A DNA stretch of 64,000 bases from Luteolibacter rhizosphaerae (GTDB lineage Bacteria > Verrucomicrobiota > Verrucomicrobiia > Verrucomicrobiales > Akkermansiaceae). Shown here piece by piece: positions 17,239 through 35,566 of the stretch. The notes under the pieces were generated by a model. That model made no database searches. It was not told the origin of the DNA and was given only the letters and a program-made list of their open reading frames with translations. Both the position numbers and the translations under genes were made by a program. Numbering within the stretch: position 1 is the stretch's first letter; each line of letters opens with the position of its first letter. The DNA is taken from positions 1 through 64,000 of the forward strand of contig NZ_JAPDDR010000010.1 of assembly GCF_025950095.1 (NCBI RefSeq), written 5' to 3'.

Positions 17239-18708
17239 TCAGGCTAGCTCCAAAGCCGCAGCAAAATGAGCCAAAAGCAGCGAAGTTTCCTCCGTACCGC
17301 AGGAAACCCGTATGAGTTCTGGCGAAACCCCACATCCTTCGGCCCAATCCAGTTCCCGATAGTGGGCTAACAGGGTGTAAGGACACGCAAGGGTGAACGG
17401 CGTGCCGAAGCTCGGGCCCTTCGAAACCTGGAGGGCATCGAAAACTTTGGGAGCCTTCTTGGGATTTTTCAGGACGAACGACAACAAGGGTCCGTAGCCG
17501 CCTCTCGGGGCTTTGATGCGGTCGTAGTTTTCGCGGCTCACCACGCTCGGGTGGTAAACCTGGGCCACGGCGGGATGCTGTGAAAGCATCGCGGCCAGCG
17601 CTTCGCCGTTGGCGTTGTGCTGAGCCATCCGCGTGGGATAACCCTTCAGATTGGAGAGCAAAACCTCGGCATCGCCGACATAGAGCGGCGAACTGCTGGC
17701 ACACTCCTCGGCCAAAGCAGTGAGAAGCTGGCCCGCGAAGGGAGAATCAGGACGGACCACGGCCATGCCCCCCATGACATCACCCGTTCCCGAAAGCCAC
17801 TTGGTCAGGCTGCTCGTGACCACATCGGCGTACCGCAAGACCGCGACATTCGAGGGTCCGACGGCGGAATCATCGATGATCAGGGGCACGCCTCCTTCGG
17901 CACAAGCAGCCGAGAGGCGCGGGATATCGGCGGTGCGGAGCAAAGGATTGCTAGGCACCTCGGTGAAAACACCGGCAAATTCGCCCTGGCGGATACGGCG
18001 CAGCGCTTCGTCGAAGGACTCGCCTTCCGCCTGATTGAGGAAGACAACGCCGTTGCCGAAAAGCTCTTGGACCTTGAGTGCATCGACGTAGGGGAACTCG
18101 ATCTGCAGGGTCTTGCGGCCTTCCTTCACTCCCGGCAGGGAGCGCAACACGGCGGTAATGGAGGCCATTCCGCTGTTGAAGATGTGAACCTGCTTCGGGT
18201 CGGTGCCGGCGATCTTGCCGAGACGGCGCTGGAGAAGGTGGGTTTTGTTTCCCCCTCGCGGCTTGCCGGAGATGATGTCCTCCGCCTGGCGACTGCTTAC
18301 CAGTTCGCCGGTGAAGCGCTGGTAGTCGACGGCCACCTGGCGAGCCTTGGCTGGCACCGCAAGAACCGGCAGACCTTGAAAACCGGCGTGGCGCACGGCG
18401 ACTTCCCCGCGGGGCTCGATCCAACGCTGCGCACGCTGGGCTGCGACCTTCGTCGGGAACAGGAAAACTTCCTCGCCATCCACGGCAATCTCCGTCGCGG
18501 CCATGCCGGTGAGGCGATCCACAAGGGGATGGCGGAAGAAGCGTGGATACCCCATCCGCATGCGTCTAACGACTTTGTCCCGGGCCTCCTCGTAGCCCAC
18601 CACCGCCTTCCACGTGGGGAGGCAAACGGAACAGGCGTGGGGCGAATCCGGCAAAGGGATCCCCAGATCGACTTCCTGCCAAGCAGGAGATGACTTCATG
18701 TCGCGCAT
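17239..18708 (-). CDS. PLP-dependent cystathionine gamma-synthase-like enzyme
   Basis: A 489-residue enzyme of the Cys/Met-metabolism PLP family. The catalytic domain (about residues 150-489) has the PLP Lys303 in 'VVTSSLTKWLSGTGD', the ring-contacting Asp in 'VPLIIDDSAVG' and the substrate-binding 'RVSCGTEE' near the end. An extra N-terminal region of about 130 residues ('DLGIPLPDSPHACSVCLPTW', 'VVGYEEARDKV') matches the long form known from fungal cystathionine gamma-synthases rather than short bacterial MetB. It probably joins an activated homoserine with cysteine; other gamma-replacement or elimination activity cannot be excluded. ATG 18708 is chosen (ATG 18699 possible). Monocistronic. 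Confidence 0.8.
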   Translation of the reverse strand: MRDMKSSPAWQEVDLGIPLPDSPHACSVCLPTWKAVVGYEEARDKVVRRMRMGYPRFFRHPLVDRLTGMAATEIAVDGEEVFLFPTKVAAQRAQRWIEPRGEVAVRHAGFQGLPVLAVPAKARQVAVDYQRFTGELVSSRQAEDIISGKPRGGNKTHLLQRRLGKIAGTDPKQVHIFNSGMASITAVLRSLPGVKEGRKTLQIEFPYVDALKVQELFGNGVVFLNQAEGESFDEALRRIRQGEFAGVFTEVPSNPLLRTADIPRLSAACAEGGVPLIIDDSAVGPSNVAVLRYADVVTSSLTKWLSGTGDVMGGMAVVRPDSPFAGQLLTALAEECASSSPLYVGDAEVLLSNLKGYPTRMAQHNANGEALAAMLSQHPAVAQVYHPSVVSRENYDRIKAPRGGYGPLLSFVLKNPKKAPKVFDALQVSKGPSFGTPFTLACPYTLLAHYRELDWAEGCGVSPELIRVSCGTEETSLLLAHFAAALELA

Positions 18709-18734
18709 GCGCGCCCTTTGCTTGGGGTGGAGGC

Positions 18735-18752
18735 CCGGCTTCGGCAAGCCGG
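18735..18752 (-). promoter_or_regulatory. Stable hairpin just upstream of the PLP-enzyme start
   Basis: Perfect 7-base stem CCGGCTT/AAGCCGG with a 4-base loop, ending 27 bases before the ATG on the minus strand. It sits in the leader where it could affect ribosome loading; no known riboswitch class was recognised around it. Confidence 0.35.
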
Positions 18753-18915: not shown

Positions 18916-18942
18916 GGTAGGCGATTCATTTTGTATTTACAG
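18916..18942 (+). promoter_or_regulatory. Conserved upstream element, copy 1
   Basis: The stretch starting GGTAGGCGATTCAT and ending TGTATTTACAG is repeated, with few changes, at 26218-26245, in each case 38 bases before the chosen start of a giant pilin-like gene. Surrounding sequence is not conserved, so this is probably the shared promoter or activator site of the two cassettes. Confidence 0.55.
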
Positions 18943-18980
18943 AACGAATGAACGCCTTAGTTTCGCGGCAAAGGATCGCC

Positions 18981-21900
18981 ATGAAACACATCTCTAGACA
19001 GAAAAAGCAGCGTTTGCTGCATGATCAGTCAAAGCGTGGAAACCGAGGCTTCGCTTTGGTCATCGCAATCTCGCTTATGGTGCTACTCACCGTTCTGGCG
19101 GTAGGTCTAATGACCCTCACGACGGTTTCGCTACGGGCATCCGGCCAAAGCGAGGCGATGCAGGTGGCCCGCGGCAACGCGCGGCTGGCTCTGGCCCTGG
19201 CGATCGGGCAACTCCAGAAGACTGCGGGTTCGGATCAGAAGATCACCGCGCCCGGAACGATCGCGAACGATGATGCCCCGCGCTGGCTGACGGGCGTGTG
19301 GAACGGCAAACTGCCCACGGCAGCCACTCCGGTGCCGGACAAGGGCGGCGAGTTCCTCGGCTATCTCGCTTCCGGCTCGGAAGAAGGATCGCCCTCCTCC
19401 GCGGAGAGCCTGCCAGACACGCAAGGTGGAGCTGAGCTACTGGGTGAGGGATCCTTGGGCGAACAAGCCAGCGACAACGACAAGGTCATCGCCAAGAAGA
19501 TCGGCACCCCTGCCGCGAACGGGAATGGTGTGGGCGGCCGCTATGCTTGGGCGATCTTCGACGAAGGAACGAAGGCCAAAGTGGATATTGTCCGAAGGGA
19601 GAGGCAGGATCTGGGCAACGGCGCGCGTCAAGCGGCGATGGGGGCTGCACCGCGCTTCGGCCTGGAGGCGGTCGAGAACCTCGATGGCTTCGACTGGTTC
19701 AAGGAAACCGACCAAGGCCGGATGTTCACGCTGCCGACAGGCGACCTGATCGACAAGATGCCCGAATTGGCAGCCCACCAGCACGAGGTGACCGTGGTGA
19801 GCAAGGGATTGGTAACCGACGCGGCCCGCGGCGGCCTGCGCAAGGATCTGAGCCTGCTCTTCGCGGGTGCCAGCCTGCCGGCGGACTATGCGAACAAGCG
19901 CATCTACGATGACCCCAGCGTGGAAACCGAGGCTTCCAATCCCTACTGGGCGCAGGCCTACGAGTACGCCAATCTCTACAGCAAACTCTCGGGTGCCAAC
20001 GTGAAGGCGAACATTCCCACCGGTTACACCCCGGTGAAGTACGATGCGCGTTCCCGTTCTTACAAAGCCAATCCACAGGCGGCGAAGGGCCTGGTAATGA
20101 TGCCGGTGGTGGCCAAGGTGCAGATGCAGTTCTCGATGGTGGCCAAGGATGCCCACGGTAACTGGAGTGGCGGCGTGGACCGCAATCCCAGCACCGCCGA
20201 GGACAACTACATGGTCTACATGATCTATTCGCCGATCGTGACGCTCTACAACCCGTACAGCGTGCCGATCAGCTTCGACGAACTGCGGATCGACTTCAAG
20301 GATCTCCCGGTAGGGTTCCGCTTCTACCGCAACGGCCAGGCGCAGACGAGCTCGATGGCGCATTTCAACCAGCTCTACGTCAATCACCCCAATACCTCGG
20401 ATGTGGCCAAGGCCTTCGGGCTGAACATCCGCAGCAGCTTCTCGAAAACCAAGGTGGCCCCCGTGGTGATGCAGCCGGGTGAGAACCGGGTCTTCGGCGA
20501 ATCCGTCAGCGGCGATCTGAGCTGGAACTCGGCCTCCGGAACCTTCTTCGATTACGTCAATGCCGGTGGCACCGGCCTGACCGCCGATCTTCCGCTCGCC
20601 CCGGGCTATCCCTCGCAGGGGATCGGCTACTGGATCGACTGGCTTACGCCGCAGCATATCCGCACCGCAGCGGATGACGGCCAAGGCATCCTCCCGCTCA
20701 AGCTTTCGGACACCATCGATGTCGGCTTCGGTCCGATGAAGTCCACTGCCACGACCGGCCCGCGCCTCTCGATCGAGCTCAACCTGGTGCAAGGAACGAC
20801 GAAGAAACGCTCCGGCACGCTGGACCTGGACTACGTGGATTACAACACGCTGCGCAGCGCGATGAGCAAGGGCTCCTCCACCTTCCCCAATGGCGAAGAG
20901 CGGCTTGAGCGCCCCTATCTGGGCAGCGAAATGTATGAGAGCCCCAGCACGCCGCTGAAGAACTTCACCCGTGCCAAGGCCTTCGCCCAGTTCAGCTTCT
21001 ACGCGAAGACCACGCTGGAATCGGATACACCCTCCAAGCCATGGGTCCAAGGCGGGCATACCACCAGCTTGGTGGGCATCGACCTGGCCAAGGAGCAGAT
21101 GGGCGTCCACCCCTTCGAGGTTTCGTTCAAGCGTCTCTCTCCGAGCTACCGCTTCCCGATCGACGCGATGAACCGTGGCAAGTTCTTCACCGGCCATAGC
21201 GATGCCTATGGCACCCGGATCGCGCCGCAGTATGAGGTACCTCTCCTGCCGGTGCAGAGCCTGGCCCAACTCCGCCATGCACAGCTCTGCAACCAAGGCT
21301 TCCTGCCAGGTGCCACTTACACGGTGGGCGAATCCTTCGCCAGCGGCATGATCCCGTCCGGTGCCGTCTCCGCGGCGAGCACCAAGGACTACCGGATGCT
21401 CGACCACGCGTGGATGGCCAACACCGCGCTGTGGGACAACTACTTCTTCTCGAGTCTTTCGCCCTATGCCGGCACCGTGCTGGGAACCCGCAACCTGAAC
21501 TCGGTGGCGGAGAAGTTCTTCAAGGGCGAAGAGCAACTCCTCAACTCGCGGATGATCCCGGCGGGCAACACCTCCCCGGAAGAAACCGTGGCGAAGCTCA
21601 CCGACACCGAGGGCTATCAGACCAGTGCCGCGCACCTGATGATCGACGGGGCCTTCAACGTGAACTCCACCTCGGTGGCCGCCTGGACCGCGCTCCTTGC
21701 CTCGCTGAATCAAGAGGATGTGGATAGCTACGAACTGGTGGACGGTGCCGCGACACCGACCACGGGAATTCAGTCCAAGGTGGACTTCCCGTTCAGCCGC
21801 ATGCGCCGCGCGACCGGTGCGCCGGTGGAGAAGGCCGGCATGTTCCAAGGCCGCCATGCCCGCTGGACCGGCATGCGGAGTCTCGAAAAGGGCCAGATCC

Positions 21901-22430
21901 AAAATCTGGCGGAGAACATCGTGGAAGAAGTTCGCGCGCGCGGCCCCTTCCTCTCGCTGGCGGAATTCGTTAACCGCCGCCCGGGCAACGACAAGGAGAA
22001 GGCCTTGGCCGGTGCCTTGCAGACGGCGATCGACAAGACCGATTCCATCAATGCCCGCTTCTCCGAAGACTCCAAGACCTTCGGCGCGGACGCCCTGACG
22101 GGCTACACTTTCCCGGAAGCCATGCAGGGAATGAATGCCGCGGGTGCTCCCGGCTACCTCACGCAGGGAGACATCCTCTCCGCCCTCGGCCCGGTGGTGG
22201 CAGTGCGCTCGGATACCTTCCGCATCCGCACCTACGGCGAGGCCCTTGATCCTGAGAGCAAGGTCATCGCCCGTGCCTGGTGCGAGGCCGTCGTGCAACG
22301 TCTGCCGGACTTCGTGGATTCCAACGATGCGCCGGACACTGCGACCGGCGCCCTCACCCAGATCAACCAGACCTTCGGCCGCCGCTTCACGGTCACTTCC
22401 TTCCGTTGGCTCGGCAAGGACGAGGTCTGA
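18981..22430 (+). CDS. Giant pilin-like surface protein, Verru_Chthon cassette protein A-like (copy 1)
   Basis: An 1149-residue protein with a prepilin-like N-terminus: a basic leader, then 'RGFALVIAISLMVLLTVLAV', a hydrophobic helix beginning Gly-Phe-Ala-Leu-Val like type IV pseudopilins, but without the usual Glu at position 5. The remainder is a large, mostly beta/coil extracellular region with blocks such as 'APRWLTGVWNGK', 'ARGGLRKDLSLLF' and 'SPIVTLYNPYSVPISFDELR', typical of the Verru_Chthon cassette protein A family. Function of the family is unknown; export and assembly at the cell surface by a type II/IV-pilus-like machine is inferred. ATG 18981 is preferred over ATG 18948 because it has AAAGGA upstream and matches the second copy. 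A near-identical paralogue lies at 26283-29723. Confidence 0.82.
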   Translation: MKHISRQKKQRLLHDQSKRGNRGFALVIAISLMVLLTVLAVGLMTLTTVSLRASGQSEAMQVARGNARLALALAIGQLQKTAGSDQKITAPGTIANDDAPRWLTGVWNGKLPTAATPVPDKGGEFLGYLASGSEEGSPSSAESLPDTQGGAELLGEGSLGEQASDNDKVIAKKIGTPAANGNGVGGRYAWAIFDEGTKAKVDIVRRERQDLGNGARQAAMGAAPRFGLEAVENLDGFDWFKETDQGRMFTLPTGDLIDKMPELAAHQHEVTVVSKGLVTDAARGGLRKDLSLLFAGASLPADYANKRIYDDPSVETEASNPYWAQAYEYANLYSKLSGANVKANIPTGYTPVKYDARSRSYKANPQAAKGLVMMPVVAKVQMQFSMVAKDAHGNWSGGVDRNPSTAEDNYMVYMIYSPIVTLYNPYSVPISFDELRIDFKDLPVGFRFYRNGQAQTSSMAHFNQLYVNHPNTSDVAKAFGLNIRSSFSKTKVAPVVMQPGENRVFGESVSGDLSWNSASGTFFDYVNAGGTGLTADLPLAPGYPSQGIGYWIDWLTPQHIRTAADDGQGILPLKLSDTIDVGFGPMKSTATTGPRLSIELNLVQGTTKKRSGTLDLDYVDYNTLRSAMSKGSSTFPNGEERLERPYLGSEMYESPSTPLKNFTRAKAFAQFSFYAKTTLESDTPSKPWVQGGHTTSLVGIDLAKEQMGVHPFEVSFKRLSPSYRFPIDAMNRGKFFTGHSDAYGTRIAPQYEVPLLPVQSLAQLRHAQLCNQGFLPGATYTVGESFASGMIPSGAVSAASTKDYRMLDHAWMANTALWDNYFFSSLSPYAGTVLGTRNLNSVAEKFFKGEEQLLNSRMIPAGNTSPEETVAKLTDTEGYQTSAAHLMIDGAFNVNSTSVAAWTALLASLNQEDVDSYELVDGAATPTTGIQSKVDFPFSRMRRATGAPVEKAGMFQGRHARWTGMRSLEKGQIQNLAENIVEEVRARGPFLSLAEFVNRRPGNDKEKALAGALQTAIDKTDSINARFSEDSKTFGADALTGYTFPEAMQGMNAAGAPGYLTQGDILSALGPVVAVRSDTFRIRTYGEALDPESKVIARAWCEAVVQRLPDFVDSNDAPDTATGALTQINQTFGRRFTVTSFRWLGKDEV

Positions 22431-22464
22431 TCAAACGGTCAACGCCTCAAGCTTCGCTTCCTTT

Positions 22465-22498
22465 AGCCCCCCGGCTTGCCAAGTGCCGCCGGGGGGCT
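22465..22498 (+). terminator. Hairpin between pilin-like gene and exported-protein gene (copy 1)
   Basis: Perfect 10-base arms AGCCCCCCGG (22465-22474) and CCGGGGGGCT (22489-22498), 14-base loop, followed by TCATCTTTT. It would partly end transcription and give less of the downstream gene, which starts 18 bases later. Copied unchanged in the second cassette. Confidence 0.65.
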
Positions 22499-22516
22499 TC
22501 ATCTTTTAACCCAATC

Positions 22517-23233
22517 ATGATTCCCCGCTTCCTGGTCCTCATGCTCGCCCTCGCGGCGCCTCTCGCAGCCCAGACCCGCAAGGTCACCCTCCGCACCCTC
22601 TGCTTCACCCACGTCAACGGTGTGAAGAAGCTCTTCCTCCCGGGGCCGGAGCCGGGCAGCCTCGCCGAGGTCCCGCTCTACACCGAGGTCTTCTCCCTCC
22701 CCGTCGAGGTCAACATCACCGGTGGCAAGGCCAGCTTCCTTCTAAGCGAAGCCGCACCCGAGCCGGGCAAGCAGCGGGCCGCCCTGCCCGCCGTCAACGT
22801 GCCCGACAGTTCGAAGGTTCTCTTCCTTTTCCTGCCCAATCCCGGCAAGCCGGAGGCCCCCTACCTCGTCGTGCCGATGGCCGATGACGAGAGCGCCTTC
22901 CCGCTCGGCACCACCAAAGCGATGAACCTCACCCCGGCCAACATCCGCTTCGACCTCGGCGAGTTCGCCGGGGCCAAGGGCGTGGTGGTCGCGCCGGGCA
23001 AGACCGCCATCATCGAGTCGGTAAAAAAGGTCAACCACCTCAACCAGTTCGACGCGAAGGTGATGTACGAGGTGAAGCCGAAGGAGTTCGTGGAGTTCTA
23101 CAACTCGCGCTGGCGCTCGGTGGCGGGCAAGCGCGACATCGCGATCGCCTACATGGATCCGCAAAGCAAGAAGCCGATGGTGAACCTGTATGAGGACGCA
23201 CCTCCGGCCGTAATCAAGCCGCCGGGCCAGTGA
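22517..23233 (+). CDS. Exported protein of pilin-like cassette (copy 1)
   Basis: A 238-residue protein with a short signal peptide ending 'LAAPLAAQ' (residues 1-19). The mature part begins with 'KVTLRTLCFTHVNGVKKLF' and reads as a beta-rich domain; no cysteines beyond one, no membrane span. No named family recognised. It follows the giant pilin-like gene in both cassettes, so the two products probably work together, for example as cell-surface partner or chaperone. It differs from the copy at 29820-30536 at only two residues (Leu/Val near residue 39 and Ala/Val near residue 231). Confidence 0.75.
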   Translation: MIPRFLVLMLALAAPLAAQTRKVTLRTLCFTHVNGVKKLFLPGPEPGSLAEVPLYTEVFSLPVEVNITGGKASFLLSEAAPEPGKQRAALPAVNVPDSSKVLFLFLPNPGKPEAPYLVVPMADDESAFPLGTTKAMNLTPANIRFDLGEFAGAKGVVVAPGKTAIIESVKKVNHLNQFDAKVMYEVKPKEFVEFYNSRWRSVAGKRDIAIAYMDPQSKKPMVNLYEDAPPAVIKPPGQ

Positions 23234-23335
23234 GGGGGGAAACCTTCCCGAAAACGAGCCCCCGCGCGCGAGGCCCGGGTCGGTTTGATTGATTTTCCGC
23301 TACCGGAAAGGGATGCCCGGGTTTATGGGGAAGAC

Positions 23336-24895
23336 ATGAAAAGGGGCACGCAACGGCTGGCGATCCTGCTCGCGATCCTGGGCAGCGGGGTAGCAGGCTG
23401 GTGGATTACCCGTTCTGCCAGTCAGCCCGCCCCGGTGAAACAGGTCGTCGAGGCTCCGGCACCGAAGCCGGTTTACGACCCGCCGCCGCTGGAGAAGAAA
23501 ACGGAGAAGCGCCCGTCCGTGAAGATCCAGCGCGATACCGCGGCCGAGGAGGAGGGTGCGCTGGAGTACCAACGTTCGCTACGTTTCTCCAGCCGCGAGG
23601 CCATGGAGCAGTTCCTGACGAAGGCCAAAAGCAAAGGGATCGCCATCCTCGGCTCGATCGACCAACTGAATGCCCTGCATGTGGGCTTCCTGTCGCTGGA
23701 TGACCTGAACGGCTTGCTGGATGGCAGTGAGGAGACCGCCTACATTTATCCGGTCAATCTCCCCACGCCGGCCACCGAAGGCCTCCCGGAAGGTGCCGTG
23801 GGCATGGGCGACACGCTGCTCTCGTGGCTGGGCATCAAGGGAGACAACGCGAACTTTGGCGCTAACGTGAAGTTCGTGGTCCTCGATACCGGTTCCACAC
23901 TCGATGGGGCAAATAACCGGAACTTCGTCAAGCTGCCCGAAAACCCCGCCGATCAGAACGGCCACGGAACCGCGGTGAACGATCTGATCAAACAAATCGC
24001 CCCGGCCGCGGACGTGGCCTCCTACCGCATCGCGGATGACAACGGCCGCTCGAATACATTCCTGATGACGCAGGGCATCATGGCGGCACTGGAGGCACGC
24101 GTGGACATCATCAATATCTCCATGGGGTCGTACGGTAACTCCGCACTGCTCAAGGATGCCGTCGACCAAGCTCTCGCCGCAGGCATCAAGATTTTCGCCT
24201 CCGCCGGGAACGAAGGCTACACGCAAGTCTCCTATCCCGCCGCCTATGAAGGCGTGGTGAGCGTCGGCGCGGTGGATGCAAATGGCAGCTACCTGCCCTT
24301 CTCGAACAGCGGCAGCGTCTCCGTCACCGCGCCCGGACTGGACCTTCTAACAGCATGGACCGGCGGGAAGACCGTCTACTTCACCGGCACCTCTGCCAGC
24401 GCACCCATCGTGGCCGCGGCGACCGCCGCGGTCATGTCCCAAGGCGGACCGAAGACCACCAGTTCCTCCGCCTACTCGAAGCTCACGGACTACCTCAACG
24501 ATGCCGGCGCGCCGGGCGACGATTCCTACTACGGATCCGGGATGGTCGATCTGGGCCGGGTCTTCCAAGGCGGAGTCGCGGGTATCCCGGATGCAGCCAT
24601 CGCCGCAAACTACATTTCCACCAATGCGAACGGGCAAACGCAGCTCCAGGTGGTGGTGCAGAACCGCGGCACGACCACGCTGATCAATGCGCCGGTGACA
24701 GTGACGACGCCCGCAGGTACGAGCACCATGTATGTCTCCACCCTGCGGCCCGGAGCCATCTCCACCTTCACGCTGCCGCTCACCGTCACGGATGCAGGGG
24801 CGCGGGTGCAATCGCAGGTTTCGAATGGCTCGGGCGACATCAAGCCGTCAAACAACCGGCGCACCGATGTTTATGCCGCGCCGACTTCGAATTGA
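23336..24895 (+). CDS. Exported subtilisin-like serine protease (S8)
   Basis: A 519-residue protease. Residues 7-23 form an N-terminal signal or membrane anchor, followed by a Pro-rich linker and a prodomain-like region (80-150). The S8 domain has the full triad: Asp184 ('VVLDTGS'), His210 ('NGHGTAV'), Ser353 ('GTSASAP'), plus oxyanion Asn292 ('SAGNEG'). Residues about 420-519 form a beta-sandwich C-terminal domain of the CARDB type ('VVVQNRGTTTLINAPVTV'). ATG 23336 is chosen because GGGGAAG lies just upstream; the frame opens at TTG 23285. It overlaps the next gene and sits between the two pilin-like cassettes, so those proteins are possible substrates (inference). Confidence 0.88.
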   Translation: MKRGTQRLAILLAILGSGVAGWWITRSASQPAPVKQVVEAPAPKPVYDPPPLEKKTEKRPSVKIQRDTAAEEEGALEYQRSLRFSSREAMEQFLTKAKSKGIAILGSIDQLNALHVGFLSLDDLNGLLDGSEETAYIYPVNLPTPATEGLPEGAVGMGDTLLSWLGIKGDNANFGANVKFVVLDTGSTLDGANNRNFVKLPENPADQNGHGTAVNDLIKQIAPAADVASYRIADDNGRSNTFLMTQGIMAALEARVDIINISMGSYGNSALLKDAVDQALAAGIKIFASAGNEGYTQVSYPAAYEGVVSVGAVDANGSYLPFSNSGSVSVTAPGLDLLTAWTGGKTVYFTGTSASAPIVAAATAAVMSQGGPKTTSSSAYSKLTDYLNDAGAPGDDSYYGSGMVDLGRVFQGGVAGIPDAAIAANYISTNANGQTQLQVVVQNRGTTTLINAPVTVTTPAGTSTMYVSTLRPGAISTFTLPLTVTDAGARVQSQVSNGSGDIKPSNNRRTDVYAAPTSN

Positions 24896-25667
24896 GCTTC
24901 CGCTGATGATCCTGTCCCTGCTCGCTGCGACCTGCCCGGCCGCGGAGATGCTGCAGGCACCGAATCCCGGCGGGAAGGCGGCGAACCAACTGGACATCTC
25001 CGGCAATGCCTGCGGTCCCGCCGCGCTCCTGAGCTCCTTCCGCTGTGGCAGCACCACCTGGCAAAAGGCCGCAGCCGAACTGCCCGGGGATAGCGACAAG
25101 GCACGGATGCGGCACTGGATCCGCTATTTCGGCCTGCGCCCCTCCGAGACCCTGAAGGGCCGCACGCGCTGGACCAATGCGGGCATGAACGTGGAGGACC
25201 TCGTAACCGCGGTGAACGAGATGAACCGCCCGCTCTATCTGCCGGTGGTCACTCATGACGGGCTCTTCCTGCAAGGCCGGGAGACCCCGGAGAAGCTGCT
25301 GAAGCGTACCCGCGCACGCCTTCACAGCTCGCTCAAAAGCGGCGTGCCACCGCTGCTCAGCATGCGCCGCCATGTTTTGCGAAAGGGCCAGTGGCAGTCG
25401 GTGCAGGGCCACTTTATCACCGTCATCGCCGTGCCTGCGAAGCTGGGGAAAGGCGAGCAGGGCTTCCCCATCACTTACCTGGATCCTTGGGGCGGCAAGC
25501 GCTGCGAGGGCTGGATCCGCATCCCCACGGAATCGCTGCTTGCACCGCAGGGCCAGCGCTCCCCTTGCCTGCTGGCGGACGTGCCCGCCGCGAATATCGG
25601 CAGAAAGGAAGTCCGCAAGGGCGAAAAAAGCGTAGTCATCCCCGAGGCCGTGATCGGTCGCTGGTAG
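24873..25667 (+). CDS. Exported C39-like (papain-fold) cysteine peptidase
   Basis: About 264 residues: signal peptide to around residue 25 ('LSLLAATCPAAE'), then a papain-like fold with Cys47 in 'GNACGPAALLSSF', His180 in 'QGHFITVIAV' and Asp204 in 'TYLDPWGG', the order expected of C39-type peptidases. No ABC transporter is fused, so it is a stand-alone exported enzyme. Its start overlaps the end of the subtilase gene by 23 bases, indicating translational coupling and a shared task. The alternative start ATG 24867 adds two residues. Substrate unknown. Confidence 0.78.
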   Translation: MPRRLRIELPLMILSLLAATCPAAEMLQAPNPGGKAANQLDISGNACGPAALLSSFRCGSTTWQKAAAELPGDSDKARMRHWIRYFGLRPSETLKGRTRWTNAGMNVEDLVTAVNEMNRPLYLPVVTHDGLFLQGRETPEKLLKRTRARLHSSLKSGVPPLLSMRRHVLRKGQWQSVQGHFITVIAVPAKLGKGEQGFPITYLDPWGGKRCEGWIRIPTESLLAPQGQRSPCLLADVPAANIGRKEVRKGEKSVVIPEAVIGRW

Positions 25668-26282
25668 GGTGGTATCCATGTGCCATCAAGGAATCCGCCT
25701 CTTTCATAGGGCGGCCGCTATCCCTCTCAACACCACGATCTCTCGCCATCACGCCATCCCAAAGCGGCGATCCTCGCGGGGCTCCGAAGGAGCCTGCGGT
25801 TCGAATGGGGACATCACAAAAGATAGAACACACATATATCGTAAGCCTGGTCACCCCCCTTTTCTACGCCCGAGAGTTCTCGCGTAGAGCACCCGCGATT
25901 CACCCCGGATTCCGAGCGCTTCTGCACGCCCGAAACCGGGTCGGTTCAGACCGTCACCAAGCCTCGGGAAGCGCTGCCGCCCTACCCGGAGTGGGTAGTA
26001 CCCTTCCCCTACTCAACTTTTTTGTCTTAACGCAGGATATCGACCAAAACCTGCAAAATCATGCAACAGCTTTGAATTACACCCGAGGTGTTTAAAGCCT
26101 AGCCTTTGGTGCATCAGGAAAAGAGGTCATTTTGTAATACAGAATCGTTCTACCCCATTGGAGAGTGGGGGTTTCCGCCTCCCCCCTCCACCCGGGTAGG
26201 CGAGCCTCCCCCAATCGGGTAGGTGAATCCATTATGTATTTACAGTAGGTGGACGTGACGGCTATTTTTGACAGTAACCGTT
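25668..26282. other. Long leader region of second cassette
   Basis: No gene seen over about 600 bases. It holds a small perfect hairpin GGCTCC-GAA-GGAGCC (25780-25794), a less GC-rich stretch (25800-26150), a G/C hairpin-forming segment at about 26157-26192 and the conserved upstream element at 26218-26245. Most of it has no counterpart ahead of copy 1. Confidence 0.5.
26218..26245 (+). promoter_or_regulatory. Conserved upstream element, copy 2
   Basis: Counterpart of 18916-18942: starts GGGTAGGTGAATCCAT and ends ATGTATTTACAG, 38 bases before the ATG of the second pilin-like gene. Confidence 0.55.
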
Positions 26283-29200
26283 ATGAAACCCAATTCATTC
26301 TCGGCACTTCGCCGTTTAGATTTCCTCCGACGCAGACATCCCAGGGGCTTCGCCCTGGTCATCTCCTTATCCTTGATGGTGCTTCTCACTGTCTTGGCGG
26401 TAGGACTTCTGACCGTATCTACGGTATCGCTGCGTGCCTCGACTCAGAACGACGCGATGCAGGTGGCCAGGGGCAACGCCCGGATGGCTTTAGCATTGGC
26501 CATCGGTCAGTTACAGAAGAAGGCCGGTGCCGACCAACGGATCACGGCTCCCGGCAGCATCGCGAATAACGGTGCCCCGAGATGGCTGGCCGGTGTCTGG
26601 AACGGTAAATTGCCGACGGCAGCTACCCCGGTGCCCGATAAAGATAACCAGTTTCTCGGTTATCTGGCCTCCGGGACGGAGGAAGGAACCTCTTCCCCCG
26701 CCACACTGCCGGATGCCCAGGATGGTGCGGAGCTGATGGGCGAAGGTTCGCTGGGCAAGGAAGCACCGGTGACCGACAAAGTGTTGGCAAAGAAGATCGG
26801 CACTCCTTCCGCCGATGGCCAGAAGCCGGGCGGCAACTACGCTTGGGCGATTTTCGACGAAGGCACCAAGGCGAAGATCGATCTGGTCCGCAAGGAGCGC
26901 GAGGATCTGGGCAATGCAGCTCATCAGGCCGCGATGGGTGCGGCACCGCGCTTCGGTCTGGAAGCCGTGGACGGCTTGGACAGCTATGAGTGGGACAAGG
27001 AAACCGATCAAGCAAAGGCCTTCACCCTGCCGACCAGCGACCTGATCCAAGACATGCCGGAGCTGAAGGAGCGCCAGCACGAGGTGACCGTGGTCAGCAA
27101 GGGATTGGTAACCGACGCGGCGCGCGGCGGCCTGCGCAAGGATCTGAGCCTGCTCTTCTCCGGCACAAGCCTGCCAGCGGATTACTCGAACCGCCGGATC
27201 TACGATGACGAATCGGTGACCAGCGAACTTTCCAATCCCTATTGGGCGCAGGCATTCGAGTATGCCAACCTCTACGCCAAGCTCACGGGTGCCACGATGA
27301 AGGCCGCGGTGCCGAGCGGGTATAACCCCGTGAAGTACGATGCCCGCTCGCGGACCTACAAGGCCAATCCGCAAACCGCCAAGGGCATGGTGCTGATGCC
27401 GGTGGTGGCCAAGGTGCAAATGCAGTTCTCGATGGTGGCCAAGGATGCCCACGGCCCATGGGCGGGCGGCGTGGACAAGCAGACCAGCACGGCCGCGGAC
27501 AACTACATGGTCTATCTGATCTACTCGCCGATCGTGACGCTCTACAACCCGTACAGCGTGCCGATCAACTTCGACGAGTTGCGGATCGACTTCAAGGACC
27601 TGCCGCTGGGCTTCCGCTTCTACCGCAACGGCCAGCCGCTGACCCGGACCATGGCCCACTTCAACCAGCTCTACGTGAACATGGACGGTAACTCGTCCAC
27701 CCCGAAGACCTTCGGTGTGAACATTCGTAACAGCTACTCGCAGACTCGCACCGGCTCGATCACGATGCAGCCGGGCGAGAACCGGGTATTCGGTGAATCG
27801 GTGGACGGGAAGTGGTCCTTCGCATCCAACGAAGGGTCTTTCTTCGACTGGACCAACTCGGGCGGTGTCGGCTTCACCGGCAACATCCCGCTGGCACCGG
27901 GCTATCCCTCGCAGGGCGTCGGCTTCTGGCTCGACTGGCTGACTCCGGACGACCTGAAGTACACAAACGATGGCTGGGGCGTGCTGCCACTCGCTCTGAA
28001 CGACCGCATCGATGTCGGCTTCGGTCCGATGAAGTCCACGGCCACGACCGGCCCGCGCCTATCCATCGAGCTCAACCTCGTGCAAGGCAGCACCCGCAAG
28101 CGCTCCGGCACGCTAGACTTGGACTACGTGGATGACAGCACCCTGCGGACAGCGTTGAGCAAGGGCTCCTCTACGTTCCCGAATGGCGAAGAGCGGCTTG
28201 AGCGCCCCTATCTGGGCAGCGAGATGTATGAAAGCCCGAGCACGCCGCTGAAAAACTTCACCCGCGCCAAGGCCTTCGCCCAATTCAGCTTCTATGCGAA
28301 GACCACCCTGGACACGGACACCCCGTCCAAGCCGTGGGTGCAGGGCAGCCACAATACCAGCTTGGTCGGAATCGATCTGGCCAAGGAGGACATGGGCATC
28401 CACCCCTTCGAGGTCTCGCTCAAGCGCTTGGCTCCCAGCTATCGCTTCCCGATCGATGCCTTGAACCGCGGCAAGTTCTTCACCGGCCACAGCGAGGCGA
28501 ACGGCACTCGTATCGCACCGCAATATGAAATCCCGATGCTGCCGGTGCAGAGCCTCGCGCAACTCCGCCACGCCCAGCTCTGCAACCAAGGCTTCCTGCC
28601 AGGTGCTACCTACACGGTGGGCGAATCCTTCGCCAGCGGCATGATCCCGTCCGGTGCCGTCTCCGCGGCGAGCACCAAGGACTACCGGATGCTCGACCAT
28701 GCGTGGATGGCGAACAACGCACTGTGGGACAGCTACTTCTTTTCCACCCTCTCCCCTTACTCGGGCCCCGTGCTTGGCACGCGCAACCTGAACTCCGTAG
28801 CGGAGAAGTTCTTCAAGGGTGAAGAGCAACTCCTCAATTCGCGGATCATCCCGGCGGGCAACACCTCGCCAGAGGAAACCGTGGCAGAACTCACCGACGC
28901 GGATGGCTACCAGACCAGCGCCGCGCACCTGATGATCGACGGGGCCTTCAACGTGAACTCCACCTCGGTGGCCGCTTGGACCGCGCTCCTCGCCTCGCTG
29001 AACATGGAAGACGTGGATTACTATTCGCTCGTCGATGGTGCCGCGACTCCCACAACCGGAGTGGAAAGCGATGCCTCCTATCCCTTCACCCGCATGCGCC
29101 GCGCCGGCGGCCCCTCCGTGGAGAAGGCCGGGATGCTGCAGGGCCGCCATGCCCGCTGGACCGGCATGCGCACGCTGGAGAAGGGCCAGATCCAAACCTT

Positions 29201-29723
29201 GGCGGAGAACATCGTGGAAGAGATCCGCGAGCGCGGCCCCTTCCTTTCACTGGCAGAATTCGTTAACCGCCGCCCGGGCAACGACAAGGAGAAGGCCTTG
29301 GCCGGTGCCTTGCAAACGGCGATCGACAAGACCGATTCCATCAATGCCCGCTTCTCGGAAGACTCCCGCACCTTCGCTCTCGACAAGCTCACGGGCTATA
29401 CCTTCCCGGAAGCCATGCAGGGGATGAATGCCGCGGGCGCTCCCGGCTACCTGACGCAGGGAGACATCCTCTCCGCCCTCGGCCCGGTGGTGGCCGTGCG
29501 CTCGGATACCTTCCGCATCCGCACCTACGGCGAGGCCCTTGATCCGGACAGCAAGGTCATCGCCCGCGCTTGGTGCGAAGCGATAGTGCAACGTCTGCCA
29601 GACTTCGTGGATTCTACCAACGAGCCGCAGACCGTGACCGGAGCGCTCAGCCTGATCAACCAGACCTTCGGCCGCCGCTTCGTGGTTACTTCCTTCCGCT
29701 GGCTCGGCAAGGACGAGGTTTGA
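26283..29723 (+). CDS. Giant pilin-like surface protein, Verru_Chthon cassette protein A-like (copy 2)
   Basis: An 1146-residue paralogue of the 18981-22430 product with the same plan: basic leader, 'RGFALVISLSLMVLLTVLAV' helix and long surface region. Long blocks are identical between the two, for example 'LSLLF', 'NPYSVPI', 'ASGMIPSGAVSAASTKDYRM' and nearly all of the last 300 residues, whereas the N-terminal leader and patches around residues 150-260 and 460-560 differ. ATG 26283 is the first ATG; TTG 26268 is a possible extension. Two copies with variable patches suggest paralogous surface subunits that could form one heteromeric structure or alternate. Confidence 0.82.
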   Translation: MKPNSFSALRRLDFLRRRHPRGFALVISLSLMVLLTVLAVGLLTVSTVSLRASTQNDAMQVARGNARMALALAIGQLQKKAGADQRITAPGSIANNGAPRWLAGVWNGKLPTAATPVPDKDNQFLGYLASGTEEGTSSPATLPDAQDGAELMGEGSLGKEAPVTDKVLAKKIGTPSADGQKPGGNYAWAIFDEGTKAKIDLVRKEREDLGNAAHQAAMGAAPRFGLEAVDGLDSYEWDKETDQAKAFTLPTSDLIQDMPELKERQHEVTVVSKGLVTDAARGGLRKDLSLLFSGTSLPADYSNRRIYDDESVTSELSNPYWAQAFEYANLYAKLTGATMKAAVPSGYNPVKYDARSRTYKANPQTAKGMVLMPVVAKVQMQFSMVAKDAHGPWAGGVDKQTSTAADNYMVYLIYSPIVTLYNPYSVPINFDELRIDFKDLPLGFRFYRNGQPLTRTMAHFNQLYVNMDGNSSTPKTFGVNIRNSYSQTRTGSITMQPGENRVFGESVDGKWSFASNEGSFFDWTNSGGVGFTGNIPLAPGYPSQGVGFWLDWLTPDDLKYTNDGWGVLPLALNDRIDVGFGPMKSTATTGPRLSIELNLVQGSTRKRSGTLDLDYVDDSTLRTALSKGSSTFPNGEERLERPYLGSEMYESPSTPLKNFTRAKAFAQFSFYAKTTLDTDTPSKPWVQGSHNTSLVGIDLAKEDMGIHPFEVSLKRLAPSYRFPIDALNRGKFFTGHSEANGTRIAPQYEIPMLPVQSLAQLRHAQLCNQGFLPGATYTVGESFASGMIPSGAVSAASTKDYRMLDHAWMANNALWDSYFFSTLSPYSGPVLGTRNLNSVAEKFFKGEEQLLNSRIIPAGNTSPEETVAELTDADGYQTSAAHLMIDGAFNVNSTSVAAWTALLASLNMEDVDYYSLVDGAATPTTGVESDASYPFTRMRRAGGPSVEKAGMLQGRHARWTGMRTLEKGQIQTLAENIVEEIRERGPFLSLAEFVNRRPGNDKEKALAGALQTAIDKTDSINARFSEDSRTFALDKLTGYTFPEAMQGMNAAGAPGYLTQGDILSALGPVVAVRSDTFRIRTYGEALDPDSKVIARAWCEAIVQRLPDFVDSTNEPQTVTGALSLINQTFGRRFVVTSFRWLGKDEV

Positions 29724-29767
29724 TCCAAGCTGAATCCCAGCTCAAAGCCTCACGCTTTGCTTCCTTC

Positions 29768-29801
29768 AGCCCCCCGGCTTGCCAAGTGCCGCCGGGGGGC
29801 T
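29768..29801 (+). terminator. Hairpin between pilin-like gene and exported-protein gene (copy 2)
   Basis: Same hairpin as at 22465-22498: arms AGCCCCCCGG and CCGGGGGGCT, same loop, same TCATCTTTT tail. Confidence 0.65.
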
Positions 29802-29819
29802 TCATCTTTTAACCCAATC

Positions 29820-30536
29820 ATGATTCCCCGTTTCCTCGTCCTCATGCTGGCCCTCGCGGCTCCCCTTGCGGCGCAGACCCGCAAGGTCACCCTTCGCACC
29901 CTCTGCTTCACCCATGTCAACGGCGTGAAGAAGGTCTTTCTCCCCGGACCGGAGCCGGGCAGCCTCGCCGAGGTCCCGCTCTATACCGAGGTCTTTTCCC
30001 TTCCCGTCGAGGTCAACATCACCGGTGGCAAGGCCAGCTTCCTTCTAAGCGAAGCCGCACCCGAGCCGGGCAAGCAGCGTGCCGCCCTGCCCGCCGTCAA
30101 CGTGCCCGACAGCTCGAAGGTTCTCTTCCTTTTCCTGCCCAATCCCGGCAAGCCGGAGGCCCCCTACCTCGTCGTGCCGATGGCCGATGACGAGAGCGCC
30201 TTCCCGCTCGGCACCACCAAAGCGATGAACCTCACCCCGGCCAACATCCGCTTCGACCTCGGCGAGTTCGCCGGGGCCAAGGGCGTGGTGGTCGCGCCGG
30301 GCAAGACCGCCATCATCGAGTCGGTAAAAAAGGTCAACCACCTCAACCAGTTCGACGCGAAGGTGATGTACGAGGTGAAGCCGAAGGAGTTCGTGGAATT
30401 CTACAACTCGCGCTGGCGTTCGGTGGCGGGCAAGCGCGACATCGCGATCGCCTACATGGATCCGCAAAGCAAGAAGCCGATGGTGAACCTGTATGAGGAC
30501 GCACCCCCGGTCGTGATCAAGCCACCGGGCCAGTAA
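29820..30536 (+). CDS. Exported protein of pilin-like cassette (copy 2)
   Basis: A 238-residue exported protein, two substitutions away from the copy at 22517-23233. The first 200 bases of the two genes differ at many silent sites, while the remaining 500 bases are almost identical, which points to gene conversion across the 3' part. It ends 1 base before the convergent squalene/phytoene synthase gene. Confidence 0.75.
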   Translation: MIPRFLVLMLALAAPLAAQTRKVTLRTLCFTHVNGVKKVFLPGPEPGSLAEVPLYTEVFSLPVEVNITGGKASFLLSEAAPEPGKQRAALPAVNVPDSSKVLFLFLPNPGKPEAPYLVVPMADDESAFPLGTTKAMNLTPANIRFDLGEFAGAKGVVVAPGKTAIIESVKKVNHLNQFDAKVMYEVKPKEFVEFYNSRWRSVAGKRDIAIAYMDPQSKKPMVNLYEDAPPVVIKPPGQ

Positions 30537-30537
30537 C

Positions 30538-31512
30538 TCAAGTCCCGCTGCGGGCGATTCTGCGCGGCCAGAAGACCGCCCGCCAGATCGAGCGTCTAAC
30601 AGACGAGCGCGGGACCTTCAGCTTGGTAGCCGGCAGTCCTTCCGCGCCTGCCATCAAGGCCACGGTATCGTCTCCAATGAGAGCGGGCAGCACGGAGGCG
30701 GCGCGCAGACGCAGCAAGTTCAGACGGTGAGCATATCGACGGCCGGACTCAAGCCAGACGGCGGCGTGCTTCAGCCACTCGCTACGCGCCGGGATCAACT
30801 GCGCGGGGTCCAAGGGATCGGCGACGGGCAGGTAGCAGCGCCCGTTGGCCAGATCCTCGGGCAGATCGCGCAGGATGTTCACCAGTTGCAGGCCCATCCC
30901 ATAGCGAACGCCCAGCTCTTTCAGGTCGTCCGGCGCGGAATCGGAGAAGCGGTCGCCCAAGGTGAGGAAGCCGACGCGGGTCCAGAAGCCTCCGACACAA
31001 CCGGCCACGCGGTAGCAGTAGTCCTCCAGCTCGTGCTCGTTCTTCAGGCTCTTCGGGAGCAGGCGGCTGGCCTCGTCGAAGCGGACCAGATCAAGGCGCT
31101 GACCGCTGATAATCGTGGTCACCACATCGCGGACGGCATCGGCTTGGAGATCATCCAGCCGGAAGAGTGCATCGAAGCATTCGTCGAGACGTTCGAGCAG
31201 GGTCTTCTCGGACTCGTTGTCCTGCCGGGCGATGAAGGTCTTCAGCTTGTCTTGGCACCAGCGGGAGGACTTGCCGGCGATGCGGTCGGAGAAGGCATCG
31301 AGGAGTTCAAGGCGATCATCGACCGGGATGGAGGCGGTATCGGCCAGCGTATCGCTGGCCCGTGCCAGCAGGTAGCCGGTGGAGGTGGCGGGACGCATGG
31401 GGCCCGGAAGTGCTCGCAGGCTCAGATAGAACGAGCGCGAGACACTTTTCAGAACTTGACGATCAATGCGATCCACCGCCGGAAGCGAGCCTGAGTGGAA
31501 CGCCCGCTTCAA
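30538..31512 (-). CDS. Squalene/phytoene synthase family protein
   Basis: A 324-residue head-to-head prenyl synthase. The first Asp-rich motif is 'ARASDTLADT' and the second is 'QLVNILRDLPEDLANGRCYL'; 'SRSFYLSLRALPGPMR' near the N-terminus and 'CYRVAGCVGGFW' are also family hallmarks. It should condense two C15 or C20 diphosphates on the way to squalene/hopanoids or carotenoids; no partner gene is nearby to decide. Start is uncertain: no early ATG exists, so TTG 31512 (used here, 8 bases after the upstream stop) or GTG 31476. It is transcribed with the kinase-like gene upstream of it. Confidence 0.83.
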   Translation of the reverse strand: MKRAFHSGSLPAVDRIDRQVLKSVSRSFYLSLRALPGPMRPATSTGYLLARASDTLADTASIPVDDRLELLDAFSDRIAGKSSRWCQDKLKTFIARQDNESEKTLLERLDECFDALFRLDDLQADAVRDVVTTIISGQRLDLVRFDEASRLLPKSLKNEHELEDYCYRVAGCVGGFWTRVGFLTLGDRFSDSAPDDLKELGVRYGMGLQLVNILRDLPEDLANGRCYLPVADPLDPAQLIPARSEWLKHAAVWLESGRRYAHRLNLLRLRAASVLPALIGDDTVALMAGAEGLPATKLKVPRSSVRRSIWRAVFWPRRIARSGT

Positions 31513-31520
31513 GCCTCAAG

Positions 31521-34064
31521 TCACAGGCCGTCGAGTCTTTCCTGACACCGGGCGAGGTATTCCTCATACTCCTGGCTCTGGGGACGTTCGCGGCAGAGGA
31601 TGGACCAAGTGGCGACGGATTCGCCGTAGGCGGCGCGTGCCAGCTCCATGCGATTGCCACGCTGGGCGGCGAGGCCGAGATCGGCGAGGACAAGACCGAG
31701 GGTGCGCTTCACCTGTTCGGCCCGGAGCAGTCCGTAGTCGCTATCGACCAGCTTGCGCAGGATTTCCGCGGCGCGGGTTTCCAGCTCGATCTCTTTCTCG
31801 AATTGTTCCTCGAAACCGACGAGCCGCCCCTTTTGCCAGAGTAGGATTGCGTAGCGGTAGCGCACGAAATGGTCGGCGGCATCCGCCACCGCCGCGCCTT
31901 CCACGAATTGCAGGCCTTCATCCATCAACTGGTGGGCCTGACTGAGATTGCCGCGATCCCGGAGGATGCCGGACATCAGGCCGCGCTGGGCAGCGAGGCG
32001 AGCCCGCACCTTGGTATTCTCCGGAAGCTTCACCAGCAGATCCTCCAGGATCTTCACTGCGGCCCCGGACATGGACTCGGCGCCGGCGACGTCGGCGGAA
32101 TCCATCGCCGCCTCGGCGATCGCCCCGTAGCAGCCTGCAAGTTCGAGACGCAGCTCGAGGTTGCCCGGATCATCCTTGAGCATGGCCAGCAGATCTTCCG
32201 CCGCCATGCCGCGGGCCTCGCGCGCATCGCCCATCTGGCCGATGCCATCGAGGATCGTGGCCGAGGCGAGATAGCAGGACGCGAGCTCCGAACGCAGGAT
32301 CACGTGATCGGGACGTTGGTCCACCAGATCGTTCAGCACCTTCGTGGCGCGCTGCAGCCGTTCGTAGGCCTCGGCATCGCGGCCGGTGGCGACCATCAGA
32401 TTGGATTCGTTGATATCGAGGATCGCGAGGAGTTCCTGCACGCGGTCGGCATCGACTTCGGCTTGTGGCACGGCTTCCAGCGCCCTGCGCGCGGTGGCGA
32501 AGGCGGAGGGGGCCGTCTCATCGTTGCGGGCCTGTAGAAGCAGGGCGAGCAAGAGTCGGTCGGTGGCAAGACGCAGCTCCAGATCGGGTCCGGAAGGAAG
32601 GTCACCGGTCGAGGCAAGCGCTTCGGCCAAGCGCTCGGTGGCGAGCTTGGAATCGCCTTTGGCCAAGGAAACCTCCGCAAGCTGGAGCCGGGCCCGGGCA
32701 CGCTCTTCCTTCAACTCCGGGACATCGGCATTGCGGATGATGAAGTCCTGGAAGTAGCCCTCCAGACGCTTCAGCCGGACTTCGCGACCATCGAGCGGCG
32801 GCAGCTTGCGATGCCCCTTTTCCATCGCCCAGGTGAAGAGATGATCGGCGGTTGCCTGCGATGCTTCCAGACGGGCCAGCCAGCGGTCCTTCTCATATTG
32901 AAGTTCCCGCCGTTCGGACTCAGAAGCCTTCTTGGTGGCCGCAAGTTCGGTCTCCATTCCGCTCCGGCTTCCCGCGGCCTCGGCCAGCAGTCCTTCCAAA
33001 CGCTGGATATCACCTCGGCGACCCGCTTCCTCCGCGGAGACCTCGGAGCGCTTCATCTGATAGAGAATCGACAGGATCGCCACGCCTCCGGCGAGGACCC
33101 CTGCCGCCACATTCGCCCTCCATGTGCCGCGGCGGGCTCGGCGGTGCTGGTCCAGCACGGCATCCCGCTGTTGCTCCGCGGCGAGCTCCCGATCCGCGAC
33201 TTGGAACAGGGCCAGCACCGCGCCGGCATTGGCGGGGCGCAGGCTGTCATCCAAGGCAAGACAGCGGTCGAGGACTTCGCGATACACCTTTTCCAAGGCA
33301 TTCGCCGGAGCATCGGGCCAAACGACCTCGGGCTTCGCCTCGATCGACTTCGCCACGCTTTTGAGATTCGCCGCGATCCCGTCGCGCCGCGTCTTGCCAG
33401 GCTCCGGAGCCACCTGATCGAAAGTGGCCGTGCAACGAGGAAAGGCCCCGGTCAGGAGGCGGAATGCCAGCACGGAGAAGGCGAAGACATCCCAGCGATA
33501 ACCCTTCTCGCGCAGATAGCCATCCGGGGCCCGGAGTTGGGTTGGCGGCTGATAGAGGATCGCATCCGTATATTCCAAACTCTGGATCCCGGGCATGTTG
33601 CCGAGAGCCCAGTCGGTCAGCACCACCTTGCCCGTTTCATCGAAGAAGATGTTCCCCGGCTTCAGATTCCCGTGCGCCACCTGCCGCTCGTGCAGGGCGG
33701 CCAGCGCCCGCAGGATCTCCAGCACCGTGGACCAGGAGTTCTCCCCGGGGAAGCGGTCCAGTCGATGTTGTAGAGAGCGCGGGATCCAAGCCTCCCCCAC
33801 CTCGTCGCCCAGAAACTTGGTAATCCGGATGATCTGCTTGCCCCGGTAGTCGGCCGCCCGCTCAGGGAGCAATCCCTCCGGCCAGGAAGGATCCTCCGCC
33901 CGCAGCGCCATTTCCTCCAGCAGCGCCCGGTTTACCGCCGCCGCGTCGAAGACCTTCACCGCCACCATCTCGCCCGAAGCGTCGCGCGCTCGGTAGACGC
34001 GACCGCAGGCCCCGGCCCCGACGGGACCGAAAACCTCGAGCGAATTCACTTCGGGGGGCTGCAT
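31521..34064 (-). CDS. Membrane-bound protein-kinase-like protein with helical repeats, atypical catalytic loop
   Basis: An 847-residue protein. Residues 1-290 form a Ser/Thr-kinase fold: glycine loop 'GPVGAGACGRVY', Lys37 in 'VAVKVF', catalytic-loop equivalent 'HGNLKPGN' (131-138) and 'DWALG' (151-155) in place of DFG. The catalytic Asp of HRD is Asn133, so phosphotransfer may be lost or weakened. A single membrane span follows ('VAAGVLAGGVAILSILY', about 320), then a coiled coil (350-410) and TPR-like helical repeats to the C-terminus, predicted outside the cytoplasm. ATG 34064 is used. It is 8 bases ahead of the prenyl synthase gene. A signalling scaffold is likelier than an active kinase. 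Confidence 0.82.
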   Translation of the reverse strand: MQPPEVNSLEVFGPVGAGACGRVYRARDASGEMVAVKVFDAAAVNRALLEEMALRAEDPSWPEGLLPERAADYRGKQIIRITKFLGDEVGEAWIPRSLQHRLDRFPGENSWSTVLEILRALAALHERQVAHGNLKPGNIFFDETGKVVLTDWALGNMPGIQSLEYTDAILYQPPTQLRAPDGYLREKGYRWDVFAFSVLAFRLLTGAFPRCTATFDQVAPEPGKTRRDGIAANLKSVAKSIEAKPEVVWPDAPANALEKVYREVLDRCLALDDSLRPANAGAVLALFQVADRELAAEQQRDAVLDQHRRARRGTWRANVAAGVLAGGVAILSILYQMKRSEVSAEEAGRRGDIQRLEGLLAEAAGSRSGMETELAATKKASESERRELQYEKDRWLARLEASQATADHLFTWAMEKGHRKLPPLDGREVRLKRLEGYFQDFIIRNADVPELKEERARARLQLAEVSLAKGDSKLATERLAEALASTGDLPSGPDLELRLATDRLLLALLLQARNDETAPSAFATARRALEAVPQAEVDADRVQELLAILDINESNLMVATGRDAEAYERLQRATKVLNDLVDQRPDHVILRSELASCYLASATILDGIGQMGDAREARGMAAEDLLAMLKDDPGNLELRLELAGCYGAIAEAAMDSADVAGAESMSGAAVKILEDLLVKLPENTKVRARLAAQRGLMSGILRDRGNLSQAHQLMDEGLQFVEGAAVADAADHFVRYRYAILLWQKGRLVGFEEQFEKEIELETRAAEILRKLVDSDYGLLRAEQVKRTLGLVLADLGLAAQRGNRMELARAAYGESVATWSILCRERPQSQEYEEYLARCQERLDGL

Positions 34065-34194
34065 GCAAGCAGGATGCAGCAAGTCAGCGACCGCGCCAAC
34101 CCTTCAATTGTCATCGAAAATTCCTTACGCTCCGATGAAATATTACTCACGGGTTCCGGCGTATCCCGTGTTCGAAGAACCGTCTCCTATCCCC

Positions 34195-35526: not shown

Positions 35527-35531
35527 GCGAG

Positions 35532-35566
35532 GAATGACGAATTCCGAATTTCCGAATGTCGAATGA
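35532..35566. repeat. Short GAAT-type degenerate tandem repeat
   Basis: Between DUF1501 and the PPC gene, units of GAATGACGA, ATTCCGAAT, TTCCGAATG and TCGAATGA follow each other. The last unit runs into the ATG of the next gene. Similar degenerate GAAT arrays are, from memory, dispersed in Verrucomicrobia genomes. Confidence 0.45.

Follow-up and report, generated by a model that had tools for sequence, protein, structure and literature searches.

A duplicated cassette of putative GspK-like pseudopilin and Ig-like protein genes encloses a conserved S8–C39-like peptidase pair in Luteolibacter rhizosphaerae

In the window analyzed here, the whole 64,000-nucleotide stretch from the start of contig NZ_JAPDDR010000010.1 of Luteolibacter rhizosphaerae, two copies of a gene pair for a giant protein (A) and an exported protein (B) enclose the genes of a subtilase (S8) and a C39-like cysteine peptidase. 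This arrangement raises the question of whether the peptidases act on the A–B proteins or their exports, or whether the two sets of genes are only neighbors. An earlier note, made from the sequence, had described the locus as a duplicated pilin-like cassette and suggested a processing or assembly system for a surface structure.

The duplicated locus and its upstream element

The genes lie in the order A1–B1–S8–C39–A2–B2, with the plus strand used throughout, and the direct duplicate A1–B1 (18981-23233) and A2–B2 (26283-30536) encloses the S8 and C39-like genes (23336-25667). The features of the locus are as follows.

17239..18747, minus strand: Cys/Met-metabolism PLP enzyme, left border of the syntenic slot, outside the system
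18928..18942, plus strand: upstream element ATTTTGTATTTACAG before A1, 39 nt from the preferred start codon
18981..22430, plus strand: A1, predicted giant GspK-like tip pseudopilin with a prepilin leader and GFALV cleavage motif (structure model made of the A2 copy)
22465..22498, plus strand: hairpin between A1 and B1, weak T tail
22517..23233, plus strand: B1, exported 238-aa protein, two tandem Ig-like beta domains predicted (model made of the B2 copy)
23336..24895, plus strand: S8 subtilase, full triad, N-terminal hydrophobic anchor or signal, CARDB-like tail (below cut-off)
24867..25667, plus strand: C39-like cysteine peptidase, exported, gene overlaps that of S8
26231..26245, plus strand: upstream element ATTATGTATTTACAG before A2, 38 nt from the start codon
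26283..29723, plus strand: A2, second predicted giant GspK-like tip pseudopilin, 1146 aa, 82% identical to A1
29768..29801, plus strand: hairpin between A2 and B2
29820..30536, plus strand: B2, second predicted two-Ig-domain exported protein, 99% identical to B1 (each 238 aa)
30538..31512, minus strand: squalene/phytoene synthase, right border of the syntenic slot, outside the system

A mechanical repeat search recovered the duplicate at a near constant spacing of about 7.3 kb (7293-7303 bp), and the coordinates, gene content and direct repeat described in the earlier note hold. An alternative upstream ATG for A1 is present at 18948, although orthologue spacing favors the start at 18981. With its start at 24867 or 24873, the C39-like gene overlaps the S8 gene by 23-29 nt. 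Just outside the slot, at 34063-37965, a DUF1501 protein gene is followed by one for a PPC-domain protein; these proteins are about 90% and 70-85% identical in relatives.

Identity between the two copies climbed in the repeat search from 74% in the 5′ part of A to 93% in B. The copies are not equally old along their length, since the B copies share about 240 nt of 100% identity, flanked on either side by single differences, whereas third-codon positions of A1 and A2 match at 41-80% by block. This near-identity, confined to the B copies, points to recent gene conversion. In the near relative G004, the up and down A genes of the window are both present. The A leaders of the two genomes pair up-to-up (MK.IS.QK..) and down-to-down (MKPNSF), whereas the A bodies group by genome. 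The simplest reading is that both duplicates descend from one older duplication, with gene conversion probably keeping the bodies alike; separate duplications in the window and G004 are disfavored by the leader pairing.

A conserved element upstream of both A genes had also been proposed, and the comparison made the case stronger than could be known from the window itself. The TnTGTATTTACA element has a fixed position 35-44 nt before the A start: in the 15 cases measured near the peptidase pair, the distance from the end of the TGTATTTACA-type box to the presumed start lies in this range and is mostly 38 nt. The pattern WTNTGTATTTACA had 12 exact sites in 18 genomes, as compared with none for the reversed control pattern. 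Eleven of these 12 sites are just upstream of A genes, 10 of which are near the pair and one elsewhere (G009), and the remaining site precedes an unrelated exported-protein gene (G006). The element sits at A genes and not at S8, and variants resembling it are found ahead of A genes of other genera (L239, L240, L241). About half of the cases also have –10-like hexamers 15-18 nt downstream of the element. The spacing and the hexamers suggest that the element may serve as the –35 region of a promoter for a nearly leaderless transcript, and a regulator may bind there.

A TTTGTATTTACAAA-type element is also found ahead of A genes away from the peptidase pair, other genera included (L239, L240, L241, L231), and thus it may mark an A-gene regulon. 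Within 26100-26150 of the window, about 100 nt upstream of the A2 element, there is a degenerate second copy (TTTTGTAATACAG), with a comparable one in G004.

The hairpins reported between A and B are real in both copies (–27 kcal/mol each, with z scores of –3.6 and –4.1). Among the relatives, only G004 has a like hairpin before B, which indicates a lineage-specific feature and rules out the hairpin as a general part of the module.

Predicted nature of the A and B proteins

The N-terminus of A is a prepilin leader in which GFAL, with predicted cleavage after the Gly, is invariant among the 25 A proteins aligned. Residue +5 is not Glu in the leaders inspected, and a tip subunit is expected to be without Glu5 (PMC10191384). 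An AlphaFold2 model of A2 built from a 25-row alignment was confident (pLDDT 85.4, pTM 0.85). Foldseek gave no significant match to this model and placed GspK outside its top 50. However, structural realignment of the Foldseek candidates raised four GspK/XcpX chains with Z scores of 12.4, 12.3, 11.8 and 11.0 over 218-252 aligned residues, with the next entry at 4.5; because only this second aligner raised GspK, the assignment depends on one aligner and one predicted model. The aligned ranges on A run from residue 23-59 to residue 1142-1146, and thus span nearly all of the protein, which implies that a large insertion splits the GspK-like core. The ranges, taken together with the secondary structure, lead to an estimate of about 600 inserted residues, and the region at about 360-620 weakly resembles Ig-like domains (Z of about 4).

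Sequence searches recognized less of the protein. A sequence-profile search of A against solved structures found no relative and matched no GspK chain, and A scored 25-27 bits against NF037980 (T2SS_GspK), below the cut-off of 130. Both this profile and TIGR02600 recognize the N-terminus only. A prepilin N-terminus without Glu5 and the GspK fold of the model together lead us to predict that A is a GspK-like minor pseudopilin, and the earlier description of A as pilin-like is thereby sharpened. A differs from known GspK/XcpX proteins in its length (about 1150 aa versus about 300 aa), in the estimated insertion with its Ig-like region, in its number of about 11 copies in the genome and in missing the NF037980 cut-off. 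No other pseudopilin genes were recognized at the locus; the genome encodes four T2SSF/GspF platform proteins elsewhere. A homologues are present in 112 of the 117 Akkermansiaceae genomes sampled.

The earlier note had likened A to Verru_Chthon protein A, but membership in that family was not supported. The two A proteins scored 21.8 and 28.1 bits against TIGR02600, over the N-terminus only, and thus fell more than 300 bits short of the cut-off of 332.3. The best TIGR02600 match in the organism's own genome (E = 8.6e-9) was not over the cut-off, nor was any in the sampled members of this family; true TIGR02600 proteins for comparison were taken from other families of the order. Alignment of A with these proteins by hhalign was significant over 71 N-terminal residues only, with short common motifs further on, and global hhalign produced nothing usable. 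The companion protein D (TIGR02596) had only sub-cut-off matches in the genome and none at the locus, so a Verru_Chthon cassette as marked by this companion was not found. A nevertheless resembles Verru_Chthon A in its giant size, prepilin-like N-terminus, many paralogues per genome and occurrence in the order Verrucomicrobiales, as well as in a WxxDExxK-type motif at a similar relative position. Our literature search returned nothing under the name Verru_Chthon, nor on Verrucomicrobia with GspK, Verrucomicrobia pilins or secretome, or Luteolibacter subtilisin.

B homologues directly follow nearly every A examined, indicating that A–B is a general unit of which the two cassettes of the window are instances. 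The model of B2 is all-beta (pLDDT 89.5), and its best structural match is the extracellular domain of PepT2 (Z of about 12, 10-11% identity). As predicted for B, the extracellular domains of PepT1 and PepT2 consist of two tandem Ig-like domains in a similar arrangement; unlike them, B is not part of a membrane transporter, and at 10-13% identity the predicted resemblance is one of fold. The PepT extracellular domain binds trypsin (PMC4597091); the resemblance gives no evidence of protease binding by B. A–B may also be compared with modular minor pilins and tip effectors (PilB/PilC of S. sanguinis, PilY1, CofB–CofJ), which combine a tip pilin with added domains and a possible exported partner (PMC10191384). 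In A, however, the added part would be inside a GspK-like protein, and the partner would be a two-Ig-domain protein.

At six paralogous A–B loci (L029, L031, L036, L233, L234, L243), the neighbors include giant exported proteins of about 1140-1800 aa with LamG, Calx-beta or beta-strand repeats, which carry at their C-terminus an F[FY]R[ILV]-type motif that may be a sorting signal. In three of these loci, from different genera (L031, L233, L243), the order giant protein–A–B is conserved with a large exported protein (about 870 aa) after it, and at L031 and L233 a sulfatase also follows.

The peptidase pair and its linkage to A–B

The S8 protein belongs to the Peptidase S8 family (PF00082, 100.4 bits against a cut-off of 21.8). 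As the earlier note had claimed for the window, its Asp/His/Ser triad is complete; D184, H210 and S353, together with N292, are invariant in 17 orthologues. Its N-terminal hydrophobic segment has no clear AxA cleavage site, and thus S8 may be anchored. The best NCBIfam match of the protein was TIGR03921, the mycosin proteases of type VII secretion, which are also subtilases; however, its score of 99.2 bits is below the cut-off of 278.75, it has no visible T7SS link and it is paired with a C39-like enzyme. In the product of the overlapping C39-like gene, Q40, C48, H181 and D205 are invariant among orthologues and the C39-type motif regions NACGPAA, GHF and LDPWGG are conserved, giving the Cys/His/Asp set of such peptidases. 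The window protein did not match PF13529 (Peptidase_C39_2), although 2 of 17 orthologues did (best E = 4.8e-5), and a sequence-profile search against solved structures found no relative.

Of 18 genomes of the same genus (the Luteolibacter/Haloferula group), 17 have one copy of the C39-like gene, and the sole genome without it is 61% complete. In each of the 17, the S8 gene lies upstream and overlaps or abuts the C39-like gene. In Akkermansiaceae/Verrucomicrobiaceae-type organisms (Haloferula, Luteolibacter, MAGs), S8 is beside the C39-like gene in 30 of 32 loci, with none detected at the other two (L131, L151). More divergent C39 homologues at six further loci are without a recognizable S8. 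Across the family, 75 of the 117 genomes sampled have the C39-like gene.

The earlier proposal depended on such cassettes also occurring with these peptidases elsewhere. They do: A adjoins S8–C39 in 13 of the 17 same-genus genomes that have the pair, with B nearly always present, and two genomes of a second genus (G141 and G102) have the order A–B–S8–C39. No A is beside the pair in G002, G012, G013 and G016, nor in most other genera, and no S8–C39 pair was seen beside the A–B pairs examined elsewhere. In the genus, the slot holds S8–C39 together with zero, one or two A–B cassettes, and the PLP enzyme and squalene/phytoene synthase genes border it in many genomes. In G011 (L094:999-2835), an in-frame stop and an internal deletion disrupt the first A gene next to the pair, and a second, intact A–B remains.

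The A proteins found beside S8–C39 come from several lineages. In a 49-row tree, the A proteins near the pair belong to one large clade but are split there into about four lineages, and the labels change at least seven times. Their clustering was reached in 0 of 500 label shuffles, in a tree whose far A rows were picked by high score and are not a random sample. An ancestral array with losses would fit this pattern as well as repeated arrival. The gaps of 43-102 bp between B and S8 are consistent with a single transcript where A–B lies upstream.

Candidate roles for the peptidases

We tentatively favor a reading in which A–B is a filament-tip module and S8–C39 are peptidases that act on the module or its exports. 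A, as a giant GspK-like minor pseudopilin, would be cut by the prepilin peptidase of the cell and would take the tip position in a type II secretion or type IV filament, the machinery for which is encoded elsewhere; B would be the exported Ig-like protein that partners or caps A. The S8 enzyme, either exported or held by a membrane anchor, and the presumably co-expressed C39-like enzyme would work in the periplasm or at the surface, where they would mature, trim or police the tip module or the proteins exported by it. The gene order and its conservation, catalytic residues, GspK-like predicted fold, common upstream element and recurrent linkage were computed directly, and we infer the filament assembly, cellular location, co-transcription and peptidase action on A, B or cargo. 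The earlier suggestion of a processing or assembly system survives in part. The linkage recurs, but a dedicated role in processing A is weakened because in most of the family the peptidases occur without a neighboring A; A–B also occurs without S8–C39, and divergent C39 homologues without S8.

These same observations are what would be expected if the A–B cassettes and the S8–C39 operon merely occupied one permissive slot, perhaps with common expression conditions but no functional tie, an explanation that we regard as rather unlikely. The slot is identical in much of the genus whatever its number of cassettes, the pair and A–B are separate in most of the family, and the A genes carry an upstream element of their own, which some of those away from the pair share. 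However, mere proximity does not readily account for some four A lineages at one pair with clustering unmatched by shuffling, for the same gene order in the second genus, or for the tight and co-directional spacing. The view of the locus as a mobile element or other selfish cassette draws on its repeated architecture and gene conversion, but it is highly improbable given the vertical conservation of the locus: the C39-like gene is a single-copy core gene in the genus, the chromosomal slot is stable and a plasmid search with the C39-like protein found no match.

The roles could also be turned around, such that A–B would be a dedicated secretion tip for a neighboring exported protein and the C39-like enzyme, perhaps with S8, would be its cargo rather than its processor. 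Minor pseudopilin complexes of type II secretion systems contact secreted effectors (PMC10191384), and elsewhere A–B adjoins giant LamG/TSP3/Calx-beta proteins, sulfatases and cytochrome/DUF1501 sets. A C-terminal F[FY]R was enriched in same-strand A–B neighbors (7 of 35 versus 2 of 189), for a motif chosen post hoc and with some loci orthologous. Yet both peptidases lack this ending, S8 may be anchored, S8–C39 persists without A in many genomes, and enrichment of signal peptides beside A–B was not significant (p = 0.12, with a crude predictor). We therefore consider cargo status doubtful, and return to peptidases acting on a tip module or its exports as our preferred reading.

The folds of all parts are known. 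Nothing in the libraries or papers searched matched their combination, in which a peptidase pair is linked to a multi-copy giant GspK-like tip and the Ig-like partner of this tip, and the conserved pair beside A–B modules suggests a putative, undescribed surface or secretion apparatus. It is conceivable, although we would not expect it, that interchangeable giant GspK-like tips with their own Ig-like partners, several with a common promoter element, diversify one Akkermansiaceae secretion filament, and that one of them has a dedicated S8–C39 pair. If true, this would amount to a modular system of secretion or surface display that is as yet undescribed. Verrucomicrobia have multiple copies of giant prepilin-like proteins, and the predicted GspK fold gives the Akkermansiaceae version a testable role at the filament tip. 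The linkage to the peptidase pair names concrete candidates for the processing of these proteins, and the common upstream element offers a handle on the regulation of the A genes.
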